Positions 1,501 to 27,281 of a stretch of DNA of 29,150 nucleotides are shown here, in pieces; positions within the stretch are counted from its first letter, which is position 1; each line of letters starts with the position of its first letter. The notes under the pieces were generated by a model. That model was not told the origin of the DNA, searched no databases, and saw only the letters and a list, made by a program, of their open reading frames with translations. Source of the DNA: a virus; the IMG/VR virus record IMGVR_UViG_3300027833_000176, positions 1-29,150 of that record; one strand, written 5' to 3'. Both the position numbers and the translations under genes were made by a program.

Positions 1501-1510
1501 TTATAAATAT
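1501..1510. promoter_or_regulatory. inverted T4-late-promoter-like motif before the GIY-YIG gene
   Basis: The plus strand reads TTATAAATAT, so the coding strand reads ATATTTATAA, 35 bases upstream of the nuclease ATG. It is one of seven exact TATAAATA octamers in the window, all intergenic. Promoter function and orientation are inferred. This copy lies farther from its gene than most of the others (11 to 17 bases). Confidence 0.45.
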
Positions 1511-1522
1511 TAATTTAATATT
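1506..1522. repeat. AT-only inverted repeat in the longest intergenic gap
   Basis: AATATTAA, one central T, then TTAATATT form a perfect 8-base inverted repeat that overlaps the late-promoter-like motif. It lies between the 132-residue fibre-associated gene and the nuclease gene. With no GC pairs and a one-base centre it is a poor candidate for an intrinsic terminator. It may be a protein-binding dyad or simply a product of AT-rich composition. Confidence 0.3.
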
Positions 1523-1546
1523 ACTAACAACCTACATATATAACTT

Positions 1547-1945
1547 TTAACAGAATGTAATATTCCCTACTTCTCCTGCTGCTAATCCTCTACCACCTAT
1601 AGTTAATAATACAGTGGCAGTACCACTTACAAAATGGGCAGGGTAAACACCAGTGGATGCAGTTGTGGTTAAGGAAGAATTAGTGTATACTATATCTCCT
1701 ACTGAGGGAATTTGAATTGAGCCTTGGTGATAATATGGAATTGTACAATTTGAGCCACAACTTGACAATAAAGGATTAACATAAAATGTTTGTAAGTTAC
1801 TAAAACCATAAAAGTCAGTTATTGCATCAGGGGCTGCAAACCCAGCAGTGTCACTAAAAGTACCCAAAGATTGGTTTGTAGCAGAGGCCCCTAGTTCTAC
1901 TCTAATATCATTTATACTTAGTGGTCCGGTTGTCGGTAAAGCCAT
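1547..1945 (-). CDS. small fibre-associated virion protein (LPTTGPL-type)
   Basis: Unnamed 132-residue protein. The N-terminus (ALPTTGPLSINDIRVELG) and the segment DTAGFAAPDAITDFYGFS (about 32-49) are of a kind I recall from fibre or adhesin-tip proteins of marine phages; that recall cannot be checked here. The C-terminal two thirds is rich in Thr, Ser, Gly and Val and looks like beta structure, with three cysteines around 62-67 and at the last residue. Its ATG shares one base with the stop of the giant fibre gene (TAATG), so the two are translationally coupled. That supports a role at the fibre tip or in fibre assembly. It has no signal peptide, as expected for a virion protein. Confidence 0.6.
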   Translation of the reverse strand: MALPTTGPLSINDIRVELGASATNQSLGTFSDTAGFAAPDAITDFYGFSNLQTFYVNPLLSSCGSNCTIPYYHQGSIQIPSVGDIVYTNSSLTTTASTGVYPAHFVSGTATVLLTIGGRGLAAGEVGNITFC

Positions 1946-4900
1946 TATATTTTTCTTTTAAGTTCGTCTATTTGTTTCTGTTGATCTTTTATTGCTTCAA
2001 TTAGTAATGGAATTATCTTTTCGTAATTAACTGCCTTATACCCACTGTCTCTAGTTGTAACAGCTTCTGGTAATATTGATTCTATTTCTTGGGCAATTAC
2101 TCCTACATCATGTCCTTTGTTTCCATGTATATTTTTAACTCCTACAATATCTAATTCTTTCCAGTCAAAGTTTACACCATTAATTCTTTCTACTTTATCT
2201 ATAGCATGCTCAATTGGTTTAATGTTACATTTTAGCCTCCTATCAGAAGTAGAAAATGCTACAACATCATTTGTTGCATCAATTCTACCTGCGGTTGCGT
2301 TAAGTGTAGCAGTACCACCAACTTGTAAGTGAGTATTAATTGTAGCATTATTCATATATGTAGTACACGATGTGGTAGTTGTTAAATTAACCCCAACTAT
2401 AAAACTACTATGTGTATTAACTAAGTTATTATTACCACCTAAAATACCACTATATTTTGTGTTACAATTACTACAACCACCATTAATTACATTACACAAT
2501 CCCCCACCTATAAAACCCCAACATCCATTACTTATAGAATGATTTTGACCCCCACCAATAACAGACCATCCATTTGATCCTATAGTATTATTAGTACCAC
2601 CACCTATAAATTGACCTGTACCTAAACTAATGGAATGGGTTTCACCACCTACTATAGTGGAACTTTTAGCGATTGTAATACTATTATTACACCCACTTAC
2701 TATAGCATTATAACCAGTGGTGGATAAGGAAGTATCAATACAGTTATTCCTCCCAGATCCTATAAAACTATATACATCTGAAGAGGTGTTTTCAAATCCT
2801 CCTCCAATATGACCATAAGATTTTTCAATAAGGTTTTGACGTCCACCACCTATACCAGAAGAATTAGCTCCGTTTCGGATTTTATTAAGATAACCACCCG
2901 CTATAACTGCCCTAGTAGTATTTTTTATGCAAGAATCTCCACCACCTAATATTGAAGAATCATAAGTTGTTGATAAATGATTATTAGTTCCTCCTCCTAC
3001 AAAATTACCAAAACAGTTACCTTGTGAAGCATCAATTTGGTTTGATTTCCCACCTACAATAACGTTATATGAACCAGATACAAGAAGGTTATTTATCCCA
3101 CCTACTATGACTGGGGCAATAGACCCATATGCCGCACTACTACTACCTCCCCCTACAAATCCAAGGGATGTATCTACTGTTTTATTGTTATACCCACCTA
3201 CAACAGTATTGTAACCTTCTTTGGAATCCGCAGCACTTGAAGTAAAGTTATAGACACCATTACTAACTCCACCTCCTACAAATGAAGATGATGCTCCACC
3301 TTGAATGGTGTTAACACAACCTCCTACTATAGAAGAGTTAGGTGAGGTACTAATACCTCCTTTAAAGAAACCACCCCCTATAAATGAATATTGAGAGTCA
3401 GTAATGTTGCTACATTCTCCACCTACTATAACAGATGCATTACTGTTTGTTATTTTATTACAACAACCACCACCTATTTTAGAATTAACAATAGATCCCG
3501 TAATTGTATTACATCGACCACCAGATATAGTATTTGAATGGTTACTAGAATCTGTTTTTATCAAATTAGAATTACCACCACTTATAGTGTTGTTATAACC
3601 TGAACCAGCAGTATGTGATCCTGTTATAGAGTTTGATGATCCTCCGGCTATTACATGATTTGCAAAATTATTTCCTCTAATAGTACCGAATTGTCCACCA
3701 CCTATAGTATTATGTTCTTCGGCATCAATTGTGTTATTTTTACCACCACCTATGGTGTTTAAGTAACTATTAACACCATCAATTGAACTTGAAATACAGT
3801 TGTTACATCCACCTAATATGGCATTACAACCCCTATTTGATAAGATACAGTTACCCATACCTCCACCTATAACTTCCATTCCTTCAATTGTACCACCTAC
3901 AATATTAGTATTACAAACACAGTTTCCTGTTCCACCCCCAATAAAAGAACCACTAGAATTACCTAGTATTGAATTTGATCTACCACCCCCAATAGTATTA
4001 TCCTTACCCGTTGATGTTATAGTATGGGATTCACCAAACAAATAATTTCTGTTACTTAAGTCAATACATTGAATTGTTGTATTTGCATTTTTTGTTTCTA
4101 TATAATGATCAACAAATAATCTTCTAGTAGTTGCACTAACACTGGAACCATAAGCACGAATGTCTACATTACCATCTGAGTTATTTAAATCTCCTATTAT
4201 TAGATTAGCACTATTACTTTTAATACCACTATTACCCTCAAACCTTAACTCACAAGTTGTAGGGTTAAATGTTAAATCAGTTTTTGCACAGGCCGAAACG
4301 GTTGATGTACCATTTGCGGTTAATATTCTATTAGTATCAGGGGTAATAATAGCATTGAACCCAGAACCTGATGAACCGCTAGAACCGCTTGAACCCGAAG
4401 AACCCCCTGAACCGTTTGAACCTGATGAACCTGATGAACCTGAAGAACCTGATGAACCACTAGAGCCACTAGAGCCTGATGAACCACCTGAACCATTAGA
4501 ACCTGAACTACCTGATGAACCACTAGAGCCGGATGAACCACCTGAACCACTAGAACCACTAGAACCTGAACTACCTGAAGAACCTCCTGAACCGTTTGAA
4601 CCTGATGAACCTGATGAACCACTTGAGCCACTTGAACCACTAGAGCCGTTTGAACCACTTGAACCTGATGAACCACTAGAACCTGAACTACCAGATGAAC
4701 CTGATGAACCACCTGAACCACTTGAGCCACTAGAACCACTAGAGCCTGAACTACCTGATGATCCGCTAGAACCTGAAGAGCCTGAACTACCTGATGATCC
4801 GCTAGAACCTGAAGAGCCTGAAGAACCACCTGAACCACTTTCTCCTGATACTGAAAAACTTAAAAATACTGAATCTGTAGAATTAAAAGGTTGAGTATCT

Positions 4901-7410
4901 GATGTTCCTTCTTCTGATAGAGTAAAGGTATAATATGTTGAACCTACTGCAAAAACGATATTAGTAATTTTATATAAAGCAAAGGATGTTGAATCCGCAG
5001 TACGTGCTACTTGAACATATCCTTTTGTATCATTATCTACATTTGTTAGTGAATCATAAAATTCTGATAGATCATCTCCATTGATATCCTTTTCATCAAT
5101 ATAGGCAGCTGTTGCTAGATCAAGATTTATACTATTAAATCTTAAACTTCCATCCCCATCAGAACCGGCTGTAATAGGAGAATTATTATATTCATATTCG
5201 AATGTAATAGCACCGTTTGCTCCTCTTATACCACTTGAACCAGATGAACCACTTGAACCTGAAGAGCCACTTGAACCACTTGAACCGCTTGAACCTGAAG
5301 AACCTGAAGAACCGCCTGAACCACTGGAACCACTAGAGCCTGATGATCCTGAAGAACCACTAGAGCCTGATGATCCTGAAGAACCACTAGAGCCTGATGA
5401 TCCTGAAGAACCATCTCCACCTGAAGCACCATCTAAATTAATATCCCAAGATGTATATGTACCACTTCCTACTGTCCTTGTAGGTGTTCCAAAACATAAT
5501 ACTCCTGTTGCAGAAACGTATGTAAGTACTTCACATTCTTGGAAGTTAGTAGCATCATAGGCTACAACAATGGATTGTGCTGTTGTATATGCTAATCCTG
5601 TATCTACATCTAAACAACCTTGGTTACCTAATATAAAAGAATCTGTTGATGTTGTAGCATATTTATCTCCATCTTCTCCTGATGAGCCACTTGAGCCTGA
5701 AGAGCCGCTTGAACCTGAAGAACCACCTGAGCCACTTGAACCACTAGAGCCTGAAGAGCCACTTGAACCACTTGAACCACTTGAACCTGATGAACCAGAT
5801 GAACCATTTGAACCGTTAGAGCCACTAGAGCCTGAAGAGCCGGATGAACCACCTGAACCGCTTGAACCACTAGAACCGGATGAACCACCTGAACCACTTG
5901 ATCCACTAGACCCCGAAGAACCACCTGAACCACTGGAACCGCTTGAACCGCTTGAACCACTTGAACCTGATGAACCAGAAGAACCACCTGAACCTGAAGA
6001 ACCAGAAGAACCACCTGAACCGTTAGAACCTGAACTACCTGATGAACCTCCTGAACCGCTTGAACCACTAGAACCGCTTGAACCTCCTGAACCGCTTGAA
6101 CCAGATGAACCACCTGAGCCGCTAGAACCTGAAGAGCCGGATGAGCCACTAGAACCTGAAGAGCCAGAAGAACCTCCTGAACCACTTGAACCTGATGAGC
6201 CTCCTGAACCACTTGAACCCGATGAACCACCTGAACCACTTGATCCGGATGAACCCGAAGAGCCTGATGAACCACTAGAACCTGAAGAGCCTGATGAACC
6301 ACCTGAACCACTAGAACCTGAAGAACCAGAAGAACCAGAAGAGCCACTTGAACCCGAAGAGCCTGATGAGCCAGAAGAACCACCTGAACCTGAAGAGCCT
6401 GATGATCCACTAGAACCATCACCTCCTGAGGCACCTGCTAAATTTACACACCAAGTACCTGAACCACCTGATGTTCCTGTTGAAGTAATAACTGTTAATA
6501 CAATTGCCCCTGTTGCTGAGGTGTATGAATCTACAGTACATTCTAAGAAGTTTGTAGCATTTAAGGATAATAATATTGTTTGTGCTGCAGTATACGCTAA
6601 ACCTGTTCCTATAGTTAAGTTAAGAGTAGCACCTAGGGTTTGAGGTAAACTTATATTTTGGGTAGTACAATTAGCATATATATCACCCCCCTCACCATCT
6701 GCACCTGAACTACCTGAAGAGCCTGAAGAGCCACTTGAACCAGAAGAACCGGATGAACCAGAAGAGCCACTTGAACCACTTGAACCTGAAGAGCCTGATG
6801 AACCACCTGAACCACTGGAACCGCTTGAGCCTGAAGAGCCACCTGAACCTGAAGAGCCAGAAGAGCCACTTGAACCTGATGAACCTCCTGAACCGCTTGA
6901 ACCACTAGAACCGGATGAACCACCTGAACCACTTGATCCTGATGAACCAGAAGAACCACCTGAACCTGAAGAGCCTGATGAACCTGAAGAGCCTGATGAA
7001 CCTGATGAACCCCCTTCTCCTGAAGAGCCAGAAGAGCCACTTGAACCAGAAGAACCAGAAGAACCATCTGAACCTGAAGAGCCTGAACTACCTGATGAGC
7101 CACCTGAGCCTGAAGAGCCTGAAGAACCACCTGAACCAGAAGAGCCACTTGAACCAGAAGAACCTGCGGCACTTATAGTAGTTTTAAAAACTTGACCTGT
7201 AGTGTTATTATATGATAAATAATGTGTTTGTGTGGTTGATAGTAACTTACTAGGGTCAATATACATTGAACCTGTTAAAGTTGAAGAACCTGATATTGTT
7301 ATATCATAGGCATCTTCTCCTGTAAAAGCATCAACAGATTGAGAGACATGCCATGATTGGATTATCTCACCTTGTTGTATTTCTGATTGGTATTTAAATT
7401 GTTCAGCCAT
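1945..7410 (-). CDS. giant collagen-like tail fibre with C-terminal S74 chaperone
   Basis: An 1821-residue fibre that probably contacts the host surface. Residues 1-82 form an N-terminal region with the IQSWHVSQSVDAFTGEDAYD segment, likely the attachment end. Four Gly-Ser-Ser/Gly-Ser-Gly collagen-like blocks follow, at about 83-242, 327-582, 661-730 and 854-1018. They are separated by three globular inserts; the first two are paralogous and the third begins IRGANGAITFEYEYN. Residues about 1137-1675 form a beta-roll with recurring GGG-x-x-N-x-I units and unusually many cysteines. Residues 1723-1821 are an S74 intramolecular chaperone starting at the S1722-D1723 cleavage-type site. A collagen-like triple helix and beta-roll imply a trimer, with the chaperone directing folding and then cleaving itself off. 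The gene follows a 30-base leader holding the late-promoter-like motif and is coupled to the downstream small gene. The N- and C-terminal assignments are strong; receptor specificity cannot be read. Confidence 0.92.
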   Translation of the reverse strand: MAEQFKYQSEIQQGEIIQSWHVSQSVDAFTGEDAYDITISGSSTLTGSMYIDPSKLLSTTQTHYLSYNNTTGQVFKTTISAAGSSGSSGSSGSGGSSGSSGSGGSSGSSGSSGSDGSSGSSGSSGSSGSSGEGGSSGSSGSSGSSGSSGSGGSSGSSGSSGSGGSSGSSGSSGSGGSSGSSGSSGSSGSGGSSGSSGSSGSGGSSGSSGSSGSSGSSGSSGSSGSSGSSGSSGSSGADGEGGDIYANCTTQNISLPQTLGATLNLTIGTGLAYTAAQTILLSLNATNFLECTVDSYTSATGAIVLTVITSTGTSGGSGTWCVNLAGASGGDGSSGSSGSSGSGGSSGSSGSSGSSGSSGSSGSSGSSGSGGSSGSSGSSGSSGSSGSSGSSGSGGSSGSSGSGGSSGSSGSGGSSGSSGSSGSSGSSGSSGSGGSSGSSGSGGSSGSSGSSGSGGSSGSSGSNGSGGSSGSSGSGGSSGSSGSSGSSGSSGSSGSGGSSGSSGSSGSGGSSGSSGSSGSGGSSGSSGSSGSNGSNGSSGSSGSSGSSGSSGSSGSSGSSGSGGSSGSSGSSGSSGSSGEDGDKYATTSTDSFILGNQGCLDVDTGLAYTTAQSIVVAYDATNFQECEVLTYVSATGVLCFGTPTRTVGSGTYTSWDINLDGASGGDGSSGSSGSSGSSGSSGSSGSSGSSGSSGSSGSGGSSGSSGSSGSSGSSGSSGSSGSSGSSGIRGANGAITFEYEYNNSPITAGSDGDGSLRFNSINLDLATAAYIDEKDINGDDLSEFYDSLTNVDNDTKGYVQVARTADSTSFALYKITNIVFAVGSTYYTFTLSEEGTSDTQPFNSTDSVFLSFSVSGESGSGGSSGSSGSSGSSGSSGSSGSSGSSGSSGSSGSSGSSGSGGSSGSSGSSGSSGSSGSSGSNGSSGSSGSSGSSGSSGSNGSGGSSGSSGSSGSSGSGGSSGSSGSSGSSGSNGSGGSSGSSGSSGSSGSSGSSGSSGSNGSGGSSGSSGSSGSSGSGFNAIITPDTNRILTANGTSTVSACAKTDLTFNPTTCELRFEGNSGIKSNSANLIIGDLNNSDGNVDIRAYGSSVSATTRRLFVDHYIETKNANTTIQCIDLSNRNYLFGESHTITSTGKDNTIGGGRSNSILGNSSGSFIGGGTGNCVCNTNIVGGTIEGMEVIGGGMGNCILSNRGCNAILGGCNNCISSSIDGVNSYLNTIGGGKNNTIDAEEHNTIGGGQFGTIRGNNFANHVIAGGSSNSITGSHTAGSGYNNTISGGNSNLIKTDSSNHSNTISGGRCNTITGSIVNSKIGGGCCNKITNSNASVIVGGECSNITDSQYSFIGGGFFKGGISTSPNSSIVGGCVNTIQGGASSSFVGGGVSNGVYNFTSSAADSKEGYNTVVGGYNNKTVDTSLGFVGGGSSSAAYGSIAPVIVGGINNLLVSGSYNVIVGGKSNQIDASQGNCFGNFVGGGTNNHLSTTYDSSILGGGDSCIKNTTRAVIAGGYLNKIRNGANSSGIGGGRQNLIEKSYGHIGGGFENTSSDVYSFIGSGRNNCIDTSLSTTGYNAIVSGCNNSITIAKSSTIVGGETHSISLGTGQFIGGGTNNTIGSNGWSVIGGGQNHSISNGCWGFIGGGLCNVINGGCSNCNTKYSGILGGNNNLVNTHSSFIVGVNLTTTTSCTTYMNNATINTHLQVGGTATLNATAGRIDATNDVVAFSTSDRRLKCNIKPIEHAIDKVERINGVNFDWKELDIVGVKNIHGNKGHDVGVIAQEIESILPEAVTTRDSGYKAVNYEKIIPLLIEAIKDQQKQIDELKRKI
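1948..2244 (-). other. S74 (endosialidase-type) intramolecular chaperone domain
   Basis: The last 99 residues of the giant fibre. They start DRRLKCNI after a serine, matching the Ser-Asp autocleavage junction of peptidase family S74. Further hallmarks are GVNFDWKE, HDVGVIAQEIESILPEAV, YKAVNYEKIIPLLIEAIK and a final helical DQQKQIDELKRKI. In characterised members the domain trimerises the fibre and is then released by cleavage at this serine. Here the serine codon lies at 2245-2247. Confidence 0.93.
2390..3999 (-). repeat. degenerate GGG-x-x-N-x-I beta-roll repeats in the fibre
   Basis: About 540 residues (roughly 1137-1675) built of recurring short units of the form (I/V)xGGGxxNxI, for example NTIGGGRSNSI, SFIGGGTGNCV and NAILGGCNNCI. 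Spacing varies from about 13 to 30 residues. The pattern resembles the head repeats of YadA-like trimeric adhesins, in which each unit forms two strands of a left-handed roll. Cysteines often occupy the asparagine positions. The DNA is diverged, so this is an old repeat rather than a recent expansion. Confidence 0.75.
4357..4850 (-). repeat. collagen-like Gly-Ser-Ser block 4
   Basis: About 165 residues of GSS triplets with interspersed GSG and GSN units, between globular insert 3 and the region before the beta-roll. It contains an exact 36-base tandem duplication at 4745-4816. Its reverse reading gives long Pro-Glu open frames on the plus strand that are artefacts. Confidence 0.9.
4745..4816 (-). 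repeat. exact 36-base tandem duplication in collagen block 4
   Basis: Two perfect copies, 4745-4780 and 4781-4816, of a 36-base unit encoding 12 residues, so the duplication preserves the frame. Neighbouring triplets use different serine codons and are not identical. An exact copy this long therefore points to recent slippage or unequal recombination that lengthened the fibre shaft. Confidence 0.9.
5222..5430 (-). repeat. collagen-like Gly-Ser-Ser block 3
   Basis: The shortest collagen-like block, about 70 residues, joining the second and third globular inserts. More than a third of it is the 27-base tandem run at 5327-5412. Confidence 0.9.
5327..5412 (-). repeat. exact 27-base tandem run (about 3.2 copies) in block 3
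   Basis: The unit, 5341-5367, is repeated exactly at 5368-5394. It continues as a partial copy to 5412, and 14 identical bases precede it from 5327. Each unit encodes nine residues (three GSS triplets), so copy-number change stays in frame. It looks like a recent slippage product. Confidence 0.9.
5667..6432 (-). repeat. collagen-like Gly-Ser-Ser block 2
   Basis: The longest block, about 255 residues of GSS/GSG triplets with a few GSN units, between the two paralogous globular inserts. Serine codons are mixed (TCN and AGY), so the DNA is less repetitive than the protein. Confidence 0.9.
6685..7164 (-). repeat. collagen-like Gly-Ser-Ser block 1
   Basis: About 160 residues of GSS and GSG triplets starting at G83, directly after the N-terminal attachment region. 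It ends at GADGEGGDIYAN, where the first globular insert begins. Confidence 0.9.
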
Positions 7411-7427: not shown

Positions 7428-7437
7428 TTATAAATAT
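7428..7437. promoter_or_regulatory. inverted T4-late-promoter-like motif before the giant fibre gene
   Basis: TTATAAATAT on the plus strand, so the coding strand reads ATATTTATAA, 17 bases before the fibre ATG. The extended coding-strand form ATATTTATAATAAA is also found before the gene at 23951. This leader separates the fibre from the structural genes upstream, so the fibre may have its own transcript. Confidence 0.5.
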
Positions 7438-7440: not shown

Positions 7441-8547
7441 TTACCTATCAATATTCACCAAAATAGTTGTATCAGTTGTTTGGGAAGACTGAAGAGGTTG
7501 GGCTAGTTTACCTATTGCTAATAATTGGAAATCTTCATCATATAAACCTACTGTAGTAATATAGGGAGAAAAATAAGATCCTGTAATTGTATTTAAACGT
7601 ACACCTGAAGATGCAGTATTTTCCCAATTTATGCTACCACTTGGGAAGACTGTTGGGATTTGACTACCTGTAATAGAACTTGGATTTAATGTATAATTAA
7701 ATTCATTTTCATTTACTGTTGCTTTATATTGGGTTTCATATATAGTATATGAACTTGAAAAAGACATAGTGACATTATTATTTAATATCCAAGCATCTAT
7801 AAATTCTTCAGTATCAACAAAAGGAGAAATAACTCCACCATATACACTAGTACCATAAATAGCATTACCATAAAAATCAGTTTCATCACCACCACTACCA
7901 TTTATTGCTCCCGATAAGTGGGAATCAAAAATTGTTACTATACCATGTTCATATATTATATTACCCGCCATGTAATTGTAGGTAGCGTTACTAGCTGTTG
8001 TTTTATATAATAGTCTACCTTCTCCATCATCTTTAATAGAACCCGTAGGTCCTTCTAATAAGAAAGAATCAGGTTGAATATAATCACCCCATAATTTTGA
8101 TGGTATAGAGATTACACCAATGGGGACTGAAGCGGTAGTTGGAGAGGGTGTTGGAAAACCTCTACTAGGCCATAAACTAGTAGAAGGATAATCATAATAA
8201 TTAGTATTTTGTACTTGACCAAATAATCTATCTCCTTCAGGATTAGCTCCTAAAGCAACACTTGCGGTAATAGCAGGTTGAGAAAAACCACCACTACCTG
8301 ATATATAATTTTTGTAGTATAACTGTTGTATTGAGTCATATACTAAAACTTGTGGTACGGTATATGCAGGAATTGCGCCTGTCATAACACTACCAGATAA
8401 TAAATAATCACCATTTCGGCCTAAAAACCTATTTATTTCAACGTTAGATTGGGTTAAAGCTAACCCACCTTTGAAATAGAAAGATTTATTTACCTCAAAC
8501 GGAGATATTATTAAGTCCTGTGCATTTAATTGTTTGTAAGCGCTCAT
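7441..8547 (-). CDS. virion structural protein, tandem paralogue A
   Basis: Unnamed 368-residue protein, likely part of the baseplate periphery or fibre attachment. It is a paralogue of its upstream neighbour (8553-9611). Both start with a short K-R/Q-L-(D/N) segment and share a C-terminal domain. Here that domain contains NEFNYTLNPSSITGS and then TTVGLYDEDFQLLAIGKLAQPLQ, ending in a strand-like VNIDR. The middle is Ser/Gly/Tyr-rich with no recognisable catalytic motif and no signal peptide or membrane segment. A five-base gap separates the pair, and a 30-base leader follows before the giant fibre. The position supports a structural role; the specific function is not known. Confidence 0.7.
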   Translation of the reverse strand: MSAYKQLNAQDLIISPFEVNKSFYFKGGLALTQSNVEINRFLGRNGDYLLSGSVMTGAIPAYTVPQVLVYDSIQQLYYKNYISGSGGFSQPAITASVALGANPEGDRLFGQVQNTNYYDYPSTSLWPSRGFPTPSPTTASVPIGVISIPSKLWGDYIQPDSFLLEGPTGSIKDDGEGRLLYKTTASNATYNYMAGNIIYEHGIVTIFDSHLSGAINGSGGDETDFYGNAIYGTSVYGGVISPFVDTEEFIDAWILNNNVTMSFSSSYTIYETQYKATVNENEFNYTLNPSSITGSQIPTVFPSGSINWENTASSGVRLNTITGSYFSPYITTVGLYDEDFQLLAIGKLAQPLQSSQTTDTTILVNIDR

Positions 8548-10300: not shown

Positions 10301-10310
10301 ATATAAATAT
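10301..10310. promoter_or_regulatory. proximal copy of the inverted late-promoter-like motif before the 224-residue gene
   Basis: The plus strand reads ATATAAATAT and contains an exact TATAAATA. It ends 11 bases before the ATG at 10289. It is one of two copies in this 49-base gap. Confidence 0.45.
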
Positions 10311-10319
10311 TGTTATATG

Positions 10320-16300: not shown

Positions 16301-19300
16301 GATGATGTAACTTGAGCGGGTCTTTGTCTATTTCTTTCTAATATGTGTTGTTTTACAACTACGCCAGAAGATAAACTGGTTCGGGCAGGTGTAAAATCTT
16401 TAATCATTTTAAATAATGAATTATCAAAGAATTTGATTAACCTAACAAAATCAACTACATCATAGTTATCCATATATTTTTCAAAATATGCGTTTCTTAA
16501 TCTATCTAGATCAGGATATGTATATAATGATGAAGAAACAAATCTTGGATCTCCAATAAATTCCCCCAGATTAAAATACCCTAATTGAGCATTTATGTCG
16601 TCATTAATTTGATTTGATGGAGAAAATGCTACCTCTAAATAATTAATGTTTGGGGTTATACTTTGACTTGTAAAAGAAGTTTGTTGCATCGATTCCATTG
16701 GTGAAATCGTTTGGGTATCATTACCAACACTTGAAATTTCAGGTACTGAAGCTGTTGGGTTTGGAAAACCATAAGGGGCTTCAGATAATATTACCTTTTC
16801 TGTTTGTATTTTATCTGTTATTCTATTTTTTATACCTGCTGGTACTTGATCTTGATATATAAATTCTTTATTTTCTACATATAGTGTTGATTTATTAGTT
16901 TTAGGAGTAGTAAAATAATCACTAGTACCATTACTGAATGATTGTGTAATTTGTACTGCTGATCCTGTTACTCTAGGGTGAATAGATGTTGGTGCTATAT
17001 TAGTAGGTATACCAAGAAAGGTACTGTCTTTACTTAATTGACTACCTAAGGCAGCTCTAAAAAACTGTTGGTTTGGTGTTGAATTAATACCATTTCCTTC
17101 GTTGGAATATGGATTAACAGTATAATCATAAAAATTACTTTGGCTAATTTCATTTACATAGTATCTTAGTTCTTGGAATAATCCAGAAAAAGGAGTATAT
17201 GTAGTACCGTCCGCAAATACAATGTCTTCATTTTTATTTAAATATCCTGTAGTAGCTTGATAGTAAAAAGAATCATCAAAACCTCCAACACTACTAGATT
17301 CATTAAACCCTATCTTACCATCTATTTTATTAGCGGCATATAAACTAGCAGTGGGGTTAGAACCATTAACATTCATTTGAACCGACCACCAATCTCCATT
17401 AAAGAAAGGTAAATATACACTAGCACTTAAATTAGGATCACCACCTCGAGCAGGTATCCATTTTAATGTACCATAAGTATCATATGGGGAGGGTATTGAT
17501 CCTGAATAAGAACCACTTACTAAACCTAAACCTGTATATTCTAATACTAAATTACCACCTTCATCATTTGTTGAAAATATAGATTGGGAATATCTAATAT
17601 TACTACTAGCTACATTATTTGTAGGTAAAGGAATTTCAGATGGTTTAAATCTTAATTGTATAGTTCGAGCTTTATTAGTACCATTTTGAACGGGGAATAA
17701 GGGGTTTGCTTCTAAAGAAGATGATACAAAATTTGTAGCATTAACTCCAGTATCAAATGCATAATTAAATACATTTTGTTTTAAATCGTAATCTTGGGAC
17801 TCGTTTCTATCTTTACCCCCAAATTCACTAATTCGCAAAATAGTATCTGGGATTCCATAAGAGGTAATTAATGCCCTTAAACCCGCTATTGTACCTTTAG
17901 TTTTAAGTAAATACGGAATATTATGGTATATTCGTTTATATATGCTCTTATTAACATCGTCTAATGGGACTATATCATTCGACGCTGATATTTTAGTATC
18001 CACGTACTCATACCCAGTAGGTGTTGCAACTGCACCACCAATTGAACCCGTCATATATGGAAATGGAAATGCACTTCCTGAAGGTGTTAATCCTAAAAAT
18101 GCTGTAAATAAATCATCAGTGTTAAAATTATTAGAATATAATTTAACTGCAAAGTCTTTAATAGCATCTGATACTAGATCTTTTGAAATACCATAATCTA
18201 ATCTATTATCGGCATCAAATTTATTAGTTACATCTTTTGTATAAACCCAAACATTATCATAATATTGACCAACCATATCAACAAATAGTTCATAATTTCT
18301 ATTTGCAGGGTCATCTCTTAAATATTCTGGTATAGAGTTATACAACCAGTCTCTATTATTATCATCATAATTAGAAGCGGTGGCAGCTGATGATGTTATC
18401 CAATTTTGTACTTCTGTACTACCTGTTGGATATAATACAAAAGGAGGTTGGGTATTAGATTTGGGATAAGAAGTTGATGAACCACTATTAAAATATAGAA
18501 AGTATTCATACCCATCAAAGTTCTTAATTATGGTATCTATAGTACCTGTTAATGAAGCAACACTTGAACTATATGCCGGGGTATAAGTAGTATCTGTTGC
18601 TATTTGATCTAAAAAAGTATTGATTTGATTACTAGCAGATTGTATTAAATCAACTTTATAGTAAAAATTCTCTAAACGTGTTTTAGCAGAACTAAAATTT
18701 ACAAAATTAGAAAACTTTTCATAATCAATATTTATGTTAATTTCTTTTTCGTTTAATAAACTTTGTATTTGATTAATTGAACTTGTTAAATCAGAATTAA
18801 CTAAAGTATTATATGAAAATTGTTCTCCAGGTGATGCTGTTTCTCCTATGACATTTAAATTATAATTTGGACCAGCAATGTATGTAAAATCATCTTCTAC
18901 AAAAGGTTCAAATGGAAAATCAACCTTATATGCTTGTGGTGAAGAAAGTAATTCGACTACCCATAATTCAGATTTATTACTAAATTCTAAAGGTAAAGGC
19001 TCATAAAGTTTAATTAATATTGTAGGATCAATTCCTTCTTCAGTTTCTAATTTTATATTATTAGCAATAACTGTTTGGTTTTGACCAAAGTTAAGATAAA
19101 AATCAACAAAATAAGTTGATGTTTCTCTATACTGGATGAAATCATTAACAGATGAAATTATATCATTATTTTCAATAGTATTACTATCTAATCTAATTTC
19201 AGTTCTATCAGATGATATATTTGAAATAAAATATTTTTCATCAATTGAAGATGCTGCTCTTTTTCTATAAAAAGAATAAGATATATTATACTCTCCTATA

Positions 19301-19582: not shown

Positions 19583-19592
19583 TTCTAAATAC
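19583..19592. promoter_or_regulatory. degenerate late-promoter-like motif before the 3074-residue gene
   Basis: TTCTAAATAC on the plus strand matches TTATAAATAT at eight of ten positions and lies 19 bases before the ATG at 19563. It fills part of the 29-base gap after the coiled-coil gene. It is weaker evidence than the exact copies but falls at the expected place. Confidence 0.25.
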
Positions 19593-20090
19593 TTAATAAT
19601 TACTTGATGTTCCTGTATTAGACCCACCAGTTGATGTTTGTGTATTTTCTGATAATGTTGTATTTGAATTTACTACTTGTGCATTTGCTTCTTGTACTTG
19701 CATAGTAGCCTTTCTCATCATAGCATTACTCTCTTCATCATCTGATTGGGCAACTTGTACTGTTATCAAATCCATTTGGGCTTTAAGTAAATTTTCTCTT
19801 AGTTGAGCTATTTCGGCTTGTAATGCTTGTACTTCAGCACTTATACTATCAAAATTAATATATTCACCACTAGTTTTAGCTAAATATTGATGTGAATTAG
19901 TTTCACCTAGTGCTTGTATATCATAAAAAAGAGAATTGTATAATCCAAAGAATTCTTCAACAGTTGGTTGAACTTGTAGATCTTCAGTAATAGTAGTGCT
20001 ACCCAATTCATCAAAACTAGTATTTATGGTTTTAATATATTGAGCTTTATTAAATGTCTCTTTCCTAAGATCTAATCTTTCTTCTGCCAT
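19593..20090 (-). CDS. small coiled-coil virion protein
   Basis: Unnamed 165-residue protein. Residues about 83-115 (SAEVQALQAEIAQLRENLL and following) show heptad-like spacing of Leu/Ile/Val and Ala typical of a coiled coil. A second Gln/Ala-rich helix runs to about 140, then a Ser/Thr/Asn/Gly tail. The N-terminal half includes EEFFGLYNSLFYDIQALG. Its ATG shares one base with the stop of the 390-residue gene (TAATG), so the two are co-translated between gp6 and the giant wedge-like protein. A linker or trimerisation role in the wedge or fibre network is plausible but not shown. Confidence 0.6.
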   Translation of the reverse strand: MAEERLDLRKETFNKAQYIKTINTSFDELGSTTITEDLQVQPTVEEFFGLYNSLFYDIQALGETNSHQYLAKTSGEYINFDSISAEVQALQAEIAQLRENLLKAQMDLITVQVAQSDDEESNAMMRKATMQVQEANAQVVNSNTTLSENTQTSTGGSNTGTSSNY

Positions 20091-21262
20091 TATCCATTAA
20101 CTATTTTAAAATAGTAATTATCATCCTTAATTAATGTACTTCCACTAATTGTGGTTTGTATTAAAATTTTATAATATCTTTCTGGTTGTAAACCAGTCAT
20201 ATACACATCAAAATAATTGCCTACAGAATCACAACTAATTTTAGTGTAATCACTATCAAATTGAACTACAAACTCATTAGTATCTAAATCTTTAATAGCC
20301 CACAAGGAATTATCGGGTAGATAATGGTTTATTGTGTCTATTGATTGAGTTTGAAATATTCTTACAGGATAGTCGGGTCTACAATTTAGTCTAAACCTAT
20401 TAATACTTTCACTATAAAACACCCCGGGGTTATTATCTAAAGCTACAAAAATATCTGCTGTTGCTAAGGGAGGGAGTGAACCTGTTTCAAAACTAGAATC
20501 ATCCCATTGGATTTCTAGTACTGGTGGGTAAATAGTATTTGTATCAACTGAATAGAATTGCATTATAGGTTGAATTGCATCTGCTGAATTAAATTCTATA
20601 GTATCTTCCCATTTTACTATAAAACCATTATTTTGTATGTCTGTAAATCCTCCAATATTATTAGAACTTGAGTACCAAACATTTACTATATCTGAAACAT
20701 CAGCTTTTAAATCTTTATCTGATCTTAATTTAAAGGATTGGGTAACTTCAATGTTAGGGTTATTTGGGTCTGTTGAACCTGTAAACCAAGTTCCACCACC
20801 TGGTGTACCTGTTTGCCAAGATGCGGTAACAAAAGTTGAAAATGCAGGAGTATCTGTATCCCAATATTTTGCTCCTGAAGCAACGGATCCTGAAAAGTTC
20901 TGAGCTTTCCAACTAACTCCATTTGTAGTAAAAGGTGAATCCAAATACGTACCACTACCATTATTCCAAGAACCAGAAACAGGATATATTTCCATTTCAG
21001 TATCAAATATAACACCTTGAGCATTAGCTACATATGCTTTTAAAGTACTTGAAAAAGGAACACCATTTCCAACTGTATTTTGTATAATACCATTAATTTG
21101 ATTTTGATCAAATTCTATTAGATATCTAAATACTTGTGGGACTGGGTTTATGTTAACGTTTAGATTACCTACTTCAATAATAGCATCTATCCCCGTATTC
21201 ATAAAGGGATAAAAGGCATACATTGATGCGTCTTGTAAGGGAAATAATTTATATACTGCCAT
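20090..21262 (-). CDS. virion protein with DNRLRE/CBM96-like beta-sandwich (putative)
   Basis: A 390-residue protein between gp6 and the coiled-coil gene, probably part of the baseplate. The first two thirds resembles the DNRLRE/CBM96 pattern. A long strand-rich opening is followed by MEIYPVSGSWNNGSGTYLDS (about 91-110), then GVSWKAQNFSG, a DVSDIVNVWYSSS helix-strand segment and a closing NNGFIVKWED strand. In characterised proteins this fold is an all-beta scaffold or a glycan-binding module. The last 120 residues form another beta-rich domain. There is no enzyme motif, signal peptide or membrane span. By gene order it could be a functional counterpart of T4 gp8, but no sequence similarity to gp8 is evident by eye. 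Confidence 0.6.
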   Translation of the reverse strand: MAVYKLFPLQDASMYAFYPFMNTGIDAIIEVGNLNVNINPVPQVFRYLIEFDQNQINGIIQNTVGNGVPFSSTLKAYVANAQGVIFDTEMEIYPVSGSWNNGSGTYLDSPFTTNGVSWKAQNFSGSVASGAKYWDTDTPAFSTFVTASWQTGTPGGGTWFTGSTDPNNPNIEVTQSFKLRSDKDLKADVSDIVNVWYSSSNNIGGFTDIQNNGFIVKWEDTIEFNSADAIQPIMQFYSVDTNTIYPPVLEIQWDDSSFETGSLPPLATADIFVALDNNPGVFYSESINRFRLNCRPDYPVRIFQTQSIDTINHYLPDNSLWAIKDLDTNEFVVQFDSDYTKISCDSVGNYFDVYMTGLQPERYYKILIQTTISGSTLIKDDNYYFKIVNG

Positions 21263-21272: not shown

Positions 21273-23144
21273 TTAATATCCTCCGTAACCAAAGGTTCCT
21301 GTACCTAAAGATACTATTCTTCCTTTTATATCATCATTAGGAAATTTAACTTCAAATATGCTAGGGTCTAATGAAGGATAAATTACTCCTCCTTGTGTAG
21401 CTCCTGGAATACTATATGCATACTCTGAATAACCATTAGTAGTTCCTGCTTTGTTTATAATTTGTATGTTAGAAACTGTTTGAACACCTGGTATTGCATC
21501 TAATATTAATGTTATTTCTCTTAATACAATGGGTTGATTTATTTGCCATCTACGCGTTAGAAAATAACCTTGTACTTCTCCTATACACTTAGTTAATATT
21601 TCATTATTATTATAGTTAGGAAGAGTTATAATATCAAACTCACAACCAATATTAACTATAAAAGCATCTTTTATATTTACCGAGTCACCTATCATCCTAT
21701 ATTGATTAATATAAGTTTTTAGGTTGTTTTTTAAGGCATCTGAGGATTTAGTTAGATTACCATTAAGATCTTGGGTTAAAACATATAAATCTAAAATAGT
21801 GTCTGGATTTTTTACTGATGCCTTAGTTGTAAATGCTTTTGATATTACACCATACTTAGGAGGCATACTTAAAGCTCTAATTAGATAATCATCAGCTGTA
21901 ACGTTTCTTTGTTGTGTATTAAAATTAGATAGTGAATTTTGTCTAATTTCTTCTATTGTATCTCCACCTCCCCCACCACTAGCGGCTGAAGGGTTATTTG
22001 TTGCTAATGAATTAAAAACAAAATTGGATGTTGGAGTATTATTATTTCCAATGTTTAAAAACTTAACAGCTGAAGAGTCTATGGTGTTTAAAGTATTAGC
22101 ATCTATGTTAGAAGAAACACCTCCACCAGTTAAATATCTTACAGTTAAAGTAGTATTTGAAGGAGCGGTACCATAAGTATTTGTAAATACAAAGTTTGTT
22201 GGTGAATAAGCTGTAGTGAGTTTATTTTGTCCAAAAGGTAAACCTAGACCTACATTATCTGGGTTTGGTACAATTTCCTCATCATTTTGAAGTGGTTTCC
22301 CGGATCCAAATTGTATTTGTAAAGTATTTTCATTTAAAAATCTAGTAACAAATCTTCTATTTACTGATTTTGTTTTTAAAATATAAGGGGTGTCTGTATC
22401 TGTATAATTATTAGGGTCATTTACATTAGTATTTTTTATACTATCATAAATTAAATCTTGTGCTAAATAATCTACTTCATAATATTGATTACCATCGGAA
22501 TCTATAATATCAATTATATTAGATATATTTGATACATTAAGTTCTAAAGTTGGATATTCAATATAATTACCTAAAGTAAAACTAGTAGAAACTATAGTAC
22601 CTGAAACTGCTTTTCTGGTCTTTTTTAGTAAATAATAAGTTGGTTCTCCTAAGGATATTTGTGATATTGTTACTAATGTAGGATCTATTGAAGAAGATAC
22701 TGAAAAATTAATTGCTTCTTGTATATTAAATCTATCACCACTTCTAGAAGAAACTAAGGTATCTTGAGGTACTTCTAAAGCATAATTAAAATCTGGGACT
22801 GTTTGAGAACCGACAACTTTAGATGGGATTTGTTGAAAAACATCTACATCAACAATAGCTAAACCTGTTACTTTAGGTTTATAACTAAACATGTAAGCCA
22901 GATCATATAAATTATCGAACTGTCTAGCATACTGTAAATATGTTTCTTGTATTTGGTTATCTAAATAGAAAGATAATACATCCGAAACATATGATGCTTG
23001 TTCTATAAACATCATTCCAGGTGAAGCAGGACTAAAATCCGTATAAGTATTAGGGAAATAAGTTTGAGAAAAATTAATAAGTTGGGCTCTAATATCATTA
23101 AAGTCCTTATTAATATATGTTATGTTTTGATTTTGTACTGCCAT
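21273..23144 (-). CDS. 6: baseplate wedge protein gp6 (baseplate J-like)
   Basis: Core wedge component. In T4, two gp6 chains pair with gp7 and link wedges into the inner baseplate ring. The 623-residue length is close to T4 gp6 (660). The N-terminus has INFSQTYFPNTYTDFSPASP and MMFIEQASYVSDVLSFYLDN, the conserved opening of contractile-tail baseplate J/gp6 proteins. The central J-like core contains GDTIEEIRQNSLSNFNTQQR and VTADDYLIRAL at about 393-425, preceded by a glycine run (AASGGGGGD). It follows gp25 with a one-base TAATG overlap, the classic gp25-gp6 order. Family assignment is strong. Confidence 0.93.
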   Translation of the reverse strand: MAVQNQNITYINKDFNDIRAQLINFSQTYFPNTYTDFSPASPGMMFIEQASYVSDVLSFYLDNQIQETYLQYARQFDNLYDLAYMFSYKPKVTGLAIVDVDVFQQIPSKVVGSQTVPDFNYALEVPQDTLVSSRSGDRFNIQEAINFSVSSSIDPTLVTISQISLGEPTYYLLKKTRKAVSGTIVSTSFTLGNYIEYPTLELNVSNISNIIDIIDSDGNQYYEVDYLAQDLIYDSIKNTNVNDPNNYTDTDTPYILKTKSVNRRFVTRFLNENTLQIQFGSGKPLQNDEEIVPNPDNVGLGLPFGQNKLTTAYSPTNFVFTNTYGTAPSNTTLTVRYLTGGGVSSNIDANTLNTIDSSAVKFLNIGNNNTPTSNFVFNSLATNNPSAASGGGGGDTIEEIRQNSLSNFNTQQRNVTADDYLIRALSMPPKYGVISKAFTTKASVKNPDTILDLYVLTQDLNGNLTKSSDALKNNLKTYINQYRMIGDSVNIKDAFIVNIGCEFDIITLPNYNNNEILTKCIGEVQGYFLTRRWQINQPIVLREITLILDAIPGVQTVSNIQIINKAGTTNGYSEYAYSIPGATQGGVIYPSLDPSIFEVKFPNDDIKGRIVSLGTGTFGYGGY

Positions 23145-23551: not shown

Positions 23552-23555
23552 TTAT

Positions 23556-23951
23556 TTAAACTTTACCTGTCATTAATCCCATTATTTGATCCATACTTAC
23601 ATTCCCATTTGGTAAACTGCCATTAGGTGATGTTGTATCCCCACCTCCCATTTGTAATGGAATATCTGCGGTTGTGGCTGATAATGTTCCGTTTGCTCCG
23701 GGCATCATTCCTCCTAATACACTTTGGATATTTTCTTTCATTGCCATTCTTTTATCTTCAGGCATTTTTTGTTGTGCTACAGGATTCATTGGACCTGGTG
23801 TTCCTATATTTGTATTAGGTACACCCATACTATTTTCGTAGACTACAGATTTAGGAGCACGTACAGCTTCAATAAGGATGTCTTTCATCTCCTCTTGTAT
23901 AGCCTCCTTTACGGCCTCTTTTACAATCGTTTTTAATTGACTTAATTTCAT
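23556..23951 (-). CDS. short helical protein with Gly/Pro/Met-rich tail
   Basis: Unnamed 131-residue protein. Residues 1-31 (MKLSQLKTIVKEAVKEAIQE and following) form a strongly amphipathic helix with alternating Lys/Glu and hydrophobic positions. The rest is low-complexity and probably disordered, rich in Gly, Pro, Met, Asn and Ser, with a final helix-like DQIMGLMTGKV. It lies just before gp25 and has its own leader with an exact late-promoter-like motif. A small assembly factor, scaffold or peptide-tagged virion protein are possibilities. No family is recognised with confidence. Confidence 0.6.
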   Translation of the reverse strand: MKLSQLKTIVKEAVKEAIQEEMKDILIEAVRAPKSVVYENSMGVPNTNIGTPGPMNPVAQQKMPEDKRMAMKENIQSVLGGMMPGANGTLSATTADIPLQMGGGDTTSPNGSLPNGNVSMDQIMGLMTGKV

Positions 23952-23965
23952 GTTATATTGATTTA

Positions 23966-23975
23966 TTATAAATAT
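23966..23975. promoter_or_regulatory. inverted T4-late-promoter-like motif before the 131-residue/gp25/gp6 genes
   Basis: TTATAAATAT on the plus strand; the coding strand reads ATATTTATAATAAA, 14 bases before the ATG at 23951. It lies in a 28-base gap and could start a transcript covering gp25 and gp6. The 14-base extended form is identical to the one before the giant fibre. Confidence 0.5.
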
Positions 23976-23979
23976 TAAA

Positions 23980-25644
23980 CTAGAATGCTTTTAAATCGTT
24001 TTGTTGTATATAAAATACAAGTTCATCGATTAATATTTGGTCTGATGCACTAAATGAAGGTTCACCCTTTAATTGAACCACACCCCGAGTATTTTTAGCA
24101 ATAGCATACCTTCTTTTTAAACTACCTACAGGATTCTTATCATCTGTTACTACGGCCATAATAAAACCATTAATATTTTTTACAATAGGATTACCATCTT
24201 CTTCTTGTTCTTGGGATAAATCTAGTAATTCTTGATTAATAACAGTTAATTCTACTTGTGTAACTCCATTTTCTTGAGCACATTCTTGCATTAATTTATC
24301 CAAACCCTTTAATAAAATTATTACAGTAGCTGCGGCCGCAATTAGAAATACTAATGCAACCAAAGTTGCTTTACTTAATTCATCAGAACTTTTTTCTAGT
24401 TCTTTTAATTGTAAGGTAAGAGTTCTTAATTTAGCTGTAGTAGAATAAGGTTGGGCAAATATTAAACCTCCAAAATCTTTTAAAGGTGGTGTACCTATAG
24501 CTTGAGGTAAGGGAATTGCATCCAAAGATATACTAACACCTTTTAATGTTGCAGATAATGTTTTAAAGGCAATAGCTAATGCTGTACTTGCTACTATTTT
24601 AGCAAATATTTGATTAAGTTGCCTTACTAATCTATTTCTTTTTCTAATAAGTTCTTCTAATTCCTCAGGAGTAGGGCATGTTTTTCTATTAGATTGTGAT
24701 AATTTTGAAATACCAAAAGCTATTAATATTCCTACAGCCATAGGAATAGTTTTAGTTTTAATAATACCTACTAGTAAGTCGATTGCAATTTTTGAAGCTG
24801 AAATGACTAGCAATTCAGGATTCATGGCTATTGCTTTTACTAATTTTTGGGCTTCATCAACTGTATCATTATATTCTTTAGATATATTTTTGGCTGCTTT
24901 ATCAAGATTAATTAAACTTGAAGCTTGGAGGTTGGATTTAATAGTTTGATCTCCATTAATTATAGGGACACTAGAAGGTACAAACCCCGATTTAGTATAT
25001 AATAACCCTAATTTAAGGGGGGTTTTTTGGTTTTTAGGAATTATAGGAAGTTTTAATTTAATTTTAAAACTACCTTGTTTATCTGTTATTATATTTTGAT
25101 TGGGTATAGGAGTATAAGCCTCAACATTAAAATTAAAATTGGGCATTGGTGTAACTAATTCTATTGGTACATTGGTGGGGTTTTCTAATGCGGTACTAAC
25201 TTCAACTCCACCCATACTAACCCCAAGTTCTACTTTAACCCCTTGTAATACATTACCCGTTATTTTATCAAATATTCTACCCGTAATTTCAAATTCTTCT
25301 ATAGTGGGTATTTCGCTTTTTAATTTAGCTTTTAAACGAATTATTTCTTTTTTAGCCTTATCAATTAAACTCTTTTTAGTGTTTTTAACAGATTCTTTTT
25401 TATCATTTATTCTTTCTTTAGCAGTTTTAGTTTTATCTATTTTATTAGATTCACTTACAGCTACAGTAACGGCTGTTGCTGATGCTGCAGTTGCTAAAGT
25501 GGTTAAATCAATATTAAATTTACTAGATAAAGAAGATATTCTATTTGTTATTTCCTTAATATTTATTTTATCCCCTAATAATTTTTTACCTTTATCTGAT
25601 AATAATTCTTTTGTAGCTAAGGCAAGTAGTGCTTTTTCTGTCAT
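23980..25644 (-). CDS. membrane-segment-containing tail protein with carboxypeptidase-regulatory-like domain
   Basis: Unnamed 554-residue protein, one base after the gp5-like gene. Residues 1-66 are helical and Ala-rich, followed by a Lys-rich charged helix (67-110). Residues about 118-240 look like a carboxypeptidase-regulatory-type Ig fold: EITGRIFDKITGNVLQGVKV, a TDKQGSFKIKLKLP strand pair and a SGFVPS turn. Three hydrophobic segments follow, at about 278-313, 349-366 and 425-446, the last being a convincing membrane span (LVALVFLIAAAATVIILLKG). The C-terminus has acidic helix and a YAIAKNTRGVVQLKG-type strand region. Hydrophobic segments next to the spike gene suggest a protein stored in the tail or hub that contacts the host membrane, or a short tape-measure-like role. 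Both ideas are inference; no known T4 gene is recognised. Confidence 0.6.
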   Translation of the reverse strand: MTEKALLALATKELLSDKGKKLLGDKINIKEITNRISSLSSKFNIDLTTLATAASATAVTVAVSESNKIDKTKTAKERINDKKESVKNTKKSLIDKAKKEIIRLKAKLKSEIPTIEEFEITGRIFDKITGNVLQGVKVELGVSMGGVEVSTALENPTNVPIELVTPMPNFNFNVEAYTPIPNQNIITDKQGSFKIKLKLPIIPKNQKTPLKLGLLYTKSGFVPSSVPIINGDQTIKSNLQASSLINLDKAAKNISKEYNDTVDEAQKLVKAIAMNPELLVISASKIAIDLLVGIIKTKTIPMAVGILIAFGISKLSQSNRKTCPTPEELEELIRKRNRLVRQLNQIFAKIVASTALAIAFKTLSATLKGVSISLDAIPLPQAIGTPPLKDFGGLIFAQPYSTTAKLRTLTLQLKELEKSSDELSKATLVALVFLIAAAATVIILLKGLDKLMQECAQENGVTQVELTVINQELLDLSQEQEEDGNPIVKNINGFIMAVVTDDKNPVGSLKRRYAIAKNTRGVVQLKGEPSFSASDQILIDELVFYIQQNDLKAF

Positions 25645-25645
25645 T

Positions 25646-26902
25646 TTAGATAGATTTTACAATTTTAGAAGTATAGCTATCAAGATTATCTAACATTAAA
25701 TTTATAGTAGTTGTAACCGAACCTGCTGCTCCCCCACTTATATATAATTTAGGTTCTCCTGTAAGTAATTGGCATAAGTTTCTTATTTTTTTTAGAAGAT
25801 CTTGATAGTCTTCTATAAAATTATCGCCCAATATAATAGATTGATTAGCATTAGCATCCCCTAACCTTACATTTCCCCTACCTGATTGTAGAGTTATATC
25901 TCCTTCTTGGGAGTATAAACCCATAGATTGGACTGATGTTAAAGATATGGTTTTATTAGAATTTAATATAATACTATCGGCTTTAGTATTAAATACTAAA
26001 CGATCAGAACTAATCATTACTTGACTACCATTATAGGCCGTAACCACTTCGGGAGGGGATTTTAATGCTGGAAAAGAAGTTATTTTTGTTTCTAAAGGTA
26101 TTGTTTGATTAGAAGTTAAATATATGGAACTTAAATCCTTATTTATATTTTCAACTACTGGTATCCAACCTTCACCACTTGATTCAGGGGATTGACCATT
26201 TCTAATTATTGTAATAGGATCCCCATTTTCTCCATTTGATGACCAGTTATTACTATCTACTTTTACTGTACTACCAAATCTTATAGAGTTACCCCATCTA
26301 CCCTCTAATATAATATCACCTGCATATGATAAAAGAGGATGTATATTACTCCTTTCGGCAAAAGTTCCACCTACTATTGGAGAATTAAAATCATAATCAA
26401 CTTCTTCATTTGTAGATTTTGAAGTTTGCCCATCAGACATTTCCGAGTATGATTTATTTTGAGTTGGTTGAGTTTGTGATTTTTTTAATAAGTTAGGATA
26501 ACCATTCATATGTTGATTATTCCAAAGAGAAATTGAATTTAAATAATAATATCTTTTAGTATTATTATTACTACCAATATTTGAATCAGGTAATGAAAAA
26601 AGTAATACTAATTCATTTACTAAGGGATAGTTTTTTAAATAAGGTAATAAGGGTAGTGCAATATTATTAGTACTAGAATCTAAATTAGCACCACCAACAG
26701 GTTCAAAATAAATAGTACCTACGGCATTCCAACCACCTAATTCAAAAAAATTAGGGTAATTACTATCAAGAATAATGTCTGTTACCCTAGCAGATATTAT
26801 GCTTTGGGTAAGTATTTCTATTTGATTCTTTAAATTAGAATCAGGTGTACTACTAACATTTAGTTGCTGGTTTATACTAGCAAAACCATATTTATTTGCC
26901 AT
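25646..26902 (-). CDS. gp5-like baseplate central spike without lysozyme domain
   Basis: A 418-residue protein that probably forms the membrane-puncturing spike. Residues about 35-135 resemble the OB-fold at the start of T4 gp5 (LPLLPYLKNYPLVNELVLLF, then YYYLNSISLWNNQ). The segment YAGDIILEGRWGNSIRFGS (193-211) and the strand run SDRLVFNTKADSIILNSN through ITLQSGRGNVRLGD (about 285-345) fit a triple-stranded beta-helix like the gp5 C-terminal needle. No T4-lysozyme catalytic motif is visible between the two, and the protein is shorter than gp5 (575). The ATG lies inside the end of the preceding gene (11-base overlap), with a GAGGA eight bases upstream that also encodes that gene's acidic tail. 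The spike assignment is fairly strong by domain order and location. Confidence 0.75.
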   Translation of the reverse strand: MANKYGFASINQQLNVSSTPDSNLKNQIEILTQSIISARVTDIILDSNYPNFFELGGWNAVGTIYFEPVGGANLDSSTNNIALPLLPYLKNYPLVNELVLLFSLPDSNIGSNNNTKRYYYLNSISLWNNQHMNGYPNLLKKSQTQPTQNKSYSEMSDGQTSKSTNEEVDYDFNSPIVGGTFAERSNIHPLLSYAGDIILEGRWGNSIRFGSTVKVDSNNWSSNGENGDPITIIRNGQSPESSGEGWIPVVENINKDLSSIYLTSNQTIPLETKITSFPALKSPPEVVTAYNGSQVMISSDRLVFNTKADSIILNSNKTISLTSVQSMGLYSQEGDITLQSGRGNVRLGDANANQSIILGDNFIEDYQDLLKKIRNLCQLLTGEPKLYISGGAAGSVTTTINLMLDNLDSYTSKIVKSI

Positions 26903-27248
26903 CTTTTTTCTCCTCGAAGTTTTCGTTAAGTTTATCTAACTCTTCCATTAGTTGATTCTTTTCTTCTTCCGTTATACCTAGGGCATCTTCGCTAGAACTA
27001 TTATTAAGCGCACGCTGTACTATAGTAGCCATTTTAATTAATTGTTCATCGTTACGAACGCCAATATCCATATATTCTTTAATGAGTGGTACAATTAAAG
27101 TTGCATCACCAATATCATTAATTAAAGGTTTAAGTTCAGATATTAAACCTGATATTTGTTTTTCTTTCTTTTTTTGATTGTTGTATATTTCTTCTAAGAT
27201 ATTAGAGAATTTTTTCTTCCCAAATACAACACTGTCTAATGATCCCAT
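26892..27248 (-). CDS. conserved small phage protein upstream of the spike gene
   Basis: Unnamed 118-residue, mostly helical protein. It starts MGSLDSVVFGKKKFSNILEE, followed by a Lys/Glu-rich helix, LISELKPLINDIGDATLIVP, and a second helical part ending in a charged tail (EELDKLNENFEEKKDGK). I recall similar small genes beside gp55 in T4-like marine phages, but with no named function. It is 37 bases downstream of the sigma factor and overlaps the spike gene by 11 bases. The leader carries two late-promoter-like octamers, so it may open the baseplate transcript. Confidence 0.65.
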   Translation of the reverse strand: MGSLDSVVFGKKKFSNILEEIYNNQKKKEKQISGLISELKPLINDIGDATLIVPLIKEYMDIGVRNDEQLIKMATIVQRALNNSSSEDALGITEEEKNQLMEELDKLNENFEEKKDGK

Positions 27249-27260
27249 AATATAATTTTG

Positions 27261-27281
27261 TTATAAATATGAATATAAATA
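27261..27281. promoter_or_regulatory. two adjacent inverted late-promoter-like octamers after the sigma factor gene
   Basis: Two exact plus-strand TATAAATA copies, at 27262-27269 and 27274-27281, fill most of the 37-base gap between the gp55-like gene and the 118-residue gene. The proximal copy, read as ATATTTATAA on the coding strand, is 12 bases before the ATG at 27248. This is the densest cluster of the motif in the window. Confidence 0.5.

Follow-up and report, generated by a model that had tools for sequence, protein, structure and literature searches.

The window, as we call the whole stretch of 29,150 nucleotides analysed here, is a fragment of an IMG/VR virus record (IMGVR_UViG_3300027833_000176), and its main genes are all located on the minus strand. 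Read along this strand, the gene 27286-27996 encodes a 236 aa protein with a predicted sigma region 2, remotely gp55-like, which we propose as the reader of the motif described below. It is followed, after a 37-nt gap, by an operon comprising 26892-27248, 25646-26902 and 23980-25644. The gene 23556-23951 then opens a baseplate operon that extends to 10339. Downstream of this operon are 9615-10289, the gene 1945-7410, identified as a tail fibre gene by PHROGs, 983-1465 and a primase gene, 35-964. The tail fibre protein is 1,821 aa long and contains long collagen-like GSSGSS runs; the GC content of its gene is locally raised, 41% against about 30-35% elsewhere.

The gaps between the genes amount to 295 bases, 1.0% of the gene-covered span. 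According to the original prediction, the T4 late promoter octamer TATAAATA occurs seven times on the plus strand, always within roughly 300 intergenic bases. We found all seven copies exactly where it had placed them (starts 1502, 7429, 10302, 10321, 23967, 27262 and 27274), and 7/7 are in gaps. An eighth copy, which had been overlooked, lies on the minus strand within the gene 25646-26902 (26140-26147). On the coding strand the gaps carry TATTTATA seven times and the T4-type octamer TATAAATA not once. Because all genes of the window are encoded on the minus strand, the functional form would be TATTTATA(A) in coding orientation, and it mostly reads ATATTTATAA.

The seven copies form five putative promoter regions, all directed along the minus strand and two of them with tandem copies. 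In brief, the first region (27262-27281) has copies at 27269-27262 and 27281-27274, both within the 37 nt that separate the sigma gene from 26892-27248. The second (23967-23974) precedes the baseplate operon, and the third (10302-10328), with copies at 10309-10302 and 10328-10321, lies ahead of 9615-10289. The fourth (7429-7436) precedes the tail fibre gene and the fifth (1502-1509) precedes 983-1465. Between the octamer and the ATG there are 13, 15, 12, 18 and 36 bases, respectively; the spacings given previously, 11-17 at four genes and 35 at a fifth, were each one base off. A different motif, GTATATTACCAT, is found ahead of the primase gene (965-982, minus strand) and probably belongs to a non-late promoter class.

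With 85% AT in the gaps, the octamers might be thought to result from base composition alone. The total for both strands of the window, 8 copies against 9.3 expected from dinucleotide shuffles of the whole window, is indeed not above chance, since the sequence is so AT-rich. Placement tells otherwise: 20,000 per-gap shuffles that kept the dinucleotides gave at most 4 copies in the gaps, where 7 are observed, and all seven gap copies share one orientation. The octamer is also conserved among orthologues with diverged flanks, and this orthologue test, given below, refutes composition as the explanation; we regard it as having next to no chance of being right.

Among isolates, the closest are Immutovirus phages of Flavobacterium (vB_FspM_immuto, NC_055915; hereafter immuto), with 46% identity in the baseplate protein and 45% in the sigma. 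Further relatives are Microcystis phage Mel-JY01 and an uncultured jumbo phage. Judging from these relatives, the host of the window phage is probably a member of the Bacteroidota. Mel-JY01 (PP395634) has the cyanobacterium Microcystis elabens as its recorded host, and it groups with phages of the Flavobacterium type, with 38% for the sigma and 45% for the baseplate protein. TATATTTG, a sequence compatible with the Bacteroidota -7 box TAnnTTTG, is enriched in its gaps. The phage may in truth infect a Bacteroidota bacterium present in the Microcystis culture.

We ranked all 8-mers by their enrichment in gaps in immuto and in non-redundant IMG/VR relatives, with the T4 late region as a positive control. 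In the 160-kb genome of immuto, TATTTATA ranks first of all 8-mers; 26 of its 30 copies are intergenic, the gaps being 6.2% of the genome. It also ranks first in 108 non-redundant IMG/VR relatives, with 251/373 copies in gaps against 30/230 for its reverse complement TATAAATA. When scored per coding strand, TATTTATA is intergenic in 244/361 cases in the window clade (107 non-redundant related contigs; reverse complement 32/231) and in 118/163 cases in the immuto clade, and in these two clades it comes second, behind only the overlapping ATATTTAT or CTATTTAT. In a third clade it is still enriched (20/28) and takes rank 10, below a TTCGTATATT motif, which counts against our main reading. In the relatives, it is the coding-strand form that is enriched.

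The same script, run on the T4 late region, returned TATAAATA in coding orientation, indicating that the ranking picks the correct strand. This control bears on the claim, made in the original prediction, that a T4 late octamer stands inverted relative to the genes, so that a T4-type TATAAATA promoter might fire antisense. The plus strand is indeed identical to the T4 octamer. What the relatives conserve ahead of the same orthologous genes is the coding-strand TATTTATA, however, and where genes of theirs are encoded on the other strand, the motif turns with them in most cases (6 in their own coding orientation against 3). The claim of inversion was therefore not upheld, and we give antisense firing a negligible probability. 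The motif looks inverted only because of its letters: both TATTTATA and TATAAATA have the form TAT..ATA, with TT and AA, respectively, in the centre, and because the ends are palindromic, a change from AA to TT resembles a flip of the strand.

Orthologues of the window genes were located, and the 60 nt ahead of each start codon were read in non-redundant upstream regions. TATTTATA was found upstream of 57/78 orthologues of 26892-27248, 17/18 of 23556-23951, 29/38 of 9615-10289, where several aligned relatives have both copies, and 19/22 of the tail fibre gene. That is, the four main operon heads carry it in 73-94% of orthologues, and almost no other genes do. The fifth site of the window is a weaker case and poorly conserved, the motif being present upstream of only 6/41 orthologues of 983-1465. 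It was seen upstream of 2/22 orthologues of 7441-8547 and 8/93 of 20090-21262, and we did not find it upstream of orthologues of the sigma gene (0/62), the gp6-like gene, 10339-19563, the primase gene or the intra-operon structural gene 21273-23144 (0/70). In 32/36 relatives the first TATTTATA begins 5-26 nt past the sigma coding match.

A degenerate copy was previously noted as preceding another gene. It does exist (19583-19592, minus strand; coding strand TATTTAGA), but none of 40 non-redundant orthologues of 10339-19563 has TATTTATA upstream; we rejected it as a functional site, and it is probably non-functional. The upstream regions of primase orthologues contain TATATTAC in 9/29 cases and TATTTATA in none. 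TTCGTATA/TCGTATAT is a second gap-enriched motif found clade-wide. In the third clade, TTTTTCGTATATTT is a second gap motif of clade-wide occurrence, and 29/29 copies of TTCGTATA are in gaps; a related form is located at 965-982 of the window, ahead of the primase gene.

The position of the octamer, mostly 10-20 nt from the ATG, would also suit a signal that acts within the mRNA close to the start codon, in the leader or in translation, the more so as Bacteroidota mRNAs lack Shine-Dalgarno sites and have their initiation tuned by upstream bases (PMC6847099). The known determinants of this tuning are, however, single bases such as A-3 and not an octamer. The spacing varies from 1 to more than 30 nt, and genes within the operons do without the motif, as the lack of any copy ahead of 21273-23144 orthologues illustrates. 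We find a leader signal very improbable, and the leader, RNA and antisense options of the original prediction are all disfavoured. Its further option, a gp55-like factor reading a diverged -10 element, is favoured by our results, and its view of the octamers as a specific intergenic signal linked to a gp55-like factor held up.

Immuto has two classes of putative promoters. Its TATTTATA sites lie mainly ahead of the terminase, portal-like gp20, sheath, tube and other structural genes. Together with the baseplate and tail fibre operons of the window, this places the motif ahead of late structural operons. Some of the copies in immuto are found ahead of non-structural genes (positions 1337, 10515, 25038, 59991 and others), which counts against our main reading. 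A second motif, TATATTTAG, is concentrated ahead of a block of small genes at 66-77 kb, and TTG is located exactly 23 nt upstream in 18/18 of these early-type sites. Many of the small genes in this block are preceded by a near-identical unit, TTG followed by TATATTTAGGTATCAATAATTAAA at a fixed distance, forming an early-type promoter family. When compared with the 18 early-type sites, the immuto late sites showed no fixed upstream TTG or -33 box; the late motif is a single -10-like element without a conserved -35. T4 late promoters likewise consist of one -10-like element and lack a -35 (PMC2988020).

The published Bacteroidota promoter consensus is TTTG / TAnnTTTG (PMC6847099). The early-type sites of immuto, with TTG 23 nt upstream of TATATTTAG, resemble such sigma-A promoters, and the host's own sigma would be their reader. 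One could therefore take TATTTATA for a host housekeeping promoter used by the host sigma, namely the -7 box TAnnTTTG minus its last G, read as TATATTTA. The TA that this requires before the octamer is present at 55/235 sites of the window clade, 27/131 of the immuto clade and 15/21 of the third clade. In the two best-sampled clades, however, most copies are preceded by CA, AA, AC or TC; the G at -5 is missing; and the late sites lack the fixed TTG box, so that TAnnTTTG with an upstream TTG box does not describe them. Host polymerase is likely to be used at both kinds of promoter, and the late motif differs in having neither the upstream box nor the terminal G. A host promoter is the least improbable of the alternatives, and we still consider it unlikely.

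The gene 27286-27996 encodes the candidate reader of the late motif, a protein that could not be assigned to any family with confidence. Sigma70_r2 was matched, at E up to 0.1, by 24/50 family members (best 0.0011). A structure model built from 50 relatives has a mean pLDDT of 77, and its residues 10-115 match many sigma region 2 structures (Z 8-10, rmsd 2.5-3 A, about 90-100 residues), so that the protein is predicted to adopt a sigma region 2 fold. With Foldseek alone, the model gave nothing below E 0.001, and T4 gp55 (7d7c) was absent among the matches listed. The relation to gp55 appears remote. Profile comparison (hhalign) gave a modest and unstable match, 61% probability in one attempt and 20% in another, with an alignment that spans the N-terminal YVNN/YFTQ stretch through FD...Y97. 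Searches with PHROG 234, PHROG 254 and the sequences of solved structures did not link the sigma firmly to gp55, to gp33 or to any structure; the gp55 PHROG 234 reached E 0.008 at best, in one genome, which is not convincing. No contigs were retrieved with the sigma of Mel-JY01 as query.

T4 gp55 takes up three bases of its promoter in pockets: A-12, which is stacked on Y97, A-9 (N13, H95) and A-8 (T99) (PMC7892883). The equivalent of Y97 is invariant in our family (50/50), while position 95 is Y/F and position 99 is G/Q/S. This residue pattern is consistent with a shifted motif centre and is no proof of it, as position 95 deviates in cyanophage gp55 as well, where it is also F. For the same reason we do not attribute the altered centre to the change from H95 to Y/F. 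The C-terminal domain (residues about 142-236), modelled alone, has SigA region 4 among its best matches (Z 5-5.6), level with unrelated helical folds. The sigma C-termini read YARF/YAKF in the window clade and ...SIQ in immuto; that the immuto clade lost a clamp-binding C-terminal tail of the sigma is only suggested by these sequences.

What we computed directly is the motif with its orientation, the conservation from gene to gene, the confinement to operon heads and the predicted region 2 fold of the sigma; from these we infer promoter function, transcript starts, recognition by the 27286-27996 sigma and late timing. We consider it very likely that TATTTATA is a -10-type, gp55-type late promoter element of a large T4-related clade, whose nearest isolates infect Flavobacterium, and that it is read by the phage sigma encoded at 27286-27996. 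In brief, the -10 element would have changed from TATAAATA to TATTTATA. Relative to T4 (T-13 A-12 T-11 A-10 A-9 A-8 T-7 A-6), -10 and -9 would become T, giving TT for AA, and the flipped bases A-12 and A-8 would be kept. The phage sigma, with its gp55-like region 2, would load on the RNA polymerase of the host and melt the promoter at TATTTATA. With T4 numbering, in which TATAAATA spans -13 to -6, transcription would start about 6 nt beyond the octamer and leave short leaders of roughly 7-31 nt. For the window we predict leaders of about 13 nt for the gene starting at 7410, 7 or 26 nt at 10289, 10 nt at 23951, 8 or 20 nt at 27248 and 31 nt at 1465. Such short leaders without Shine-Dalgarno sites would suit Bacteroidota. 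As the sigma gene immediately precedes the first late promoter and has no late motif of its own, the sigma would be made earlier and would then switch on the five late units.

The proposed system resembles T4 late transcription in its single -10-type octamer without a -35 box, the AT-rich stretch downstream, the position before late structural operons and a phage-encoded sigma with region 2. It differs in the centre of the octamer and in a sigma that is only remotely related to gp55 and has a larger C-terminal domain. It also differs in that gp33 was found in no relative examined; six relatives gave no match at E up to 1, gp33 being short and fast-evolving. Variant late promoters are known from T4-family phages, among them the Aeh1 octamer with a/gC at -13/-12 (cited in PMC2988020). 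These are likewise cases of lineage-specific octamer drift, with other positions changed and other hosts. In its working mode the element is like the late promoters of T4, yet it lacks their defining octamer, and we regard TATTTATA as a variant of the T4 late promoter that is previously undescribed in the papers searched. In the open-access literature we found no paper on TATTTATA as a phage late promoter, or on any late promoter of these phages.

Immuto shares with the window phage the motif and the order of sigma gene and late promoter, and its sites more often begin CTATTTATA. The replication genes differ. A window-clade genome (G003) encodes both a clamp and a clamp loader (5e-10 and 5e-72) and a family B polymerase, in a region that lies outside the window, and Mel-JY01 encodes a loader and a family B polymerase. 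A family A polymerase is encoded by immuto and by two other large genomes in its clade, and we detected no family B polymerase, gp45 clamp, gp44 loader, bacterial clamp or gp33 in these three, although diverged proteins could escape such matching. The sigma is encoded by all these genomes. We tentatively speculate, as a possibility we rate below even, that the immuto clade has a late system without a phage sliding clamp or gp33, associated with a family A replisome, in which the role of gp33, holding the polymerase flap, falls to a C-terminal domain of the sigma that is possibly region 4-like. If so, the replication clamp, which drives late transcription in T4, would no longer be coupled to it.

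The finding provides a sequence-based late-promoter map, paired with the likely sigma, for common aquatic Bacteroidota phages represented by hundreds of contigs. It also suggests that the centre of the T4 late element can change while two of the bases flipped by gp55, A-12 and A-8, stay. The T4 rule of clamp-driven late transcription may be tested by comparing sister clades, some with a detectable clamp and some without.
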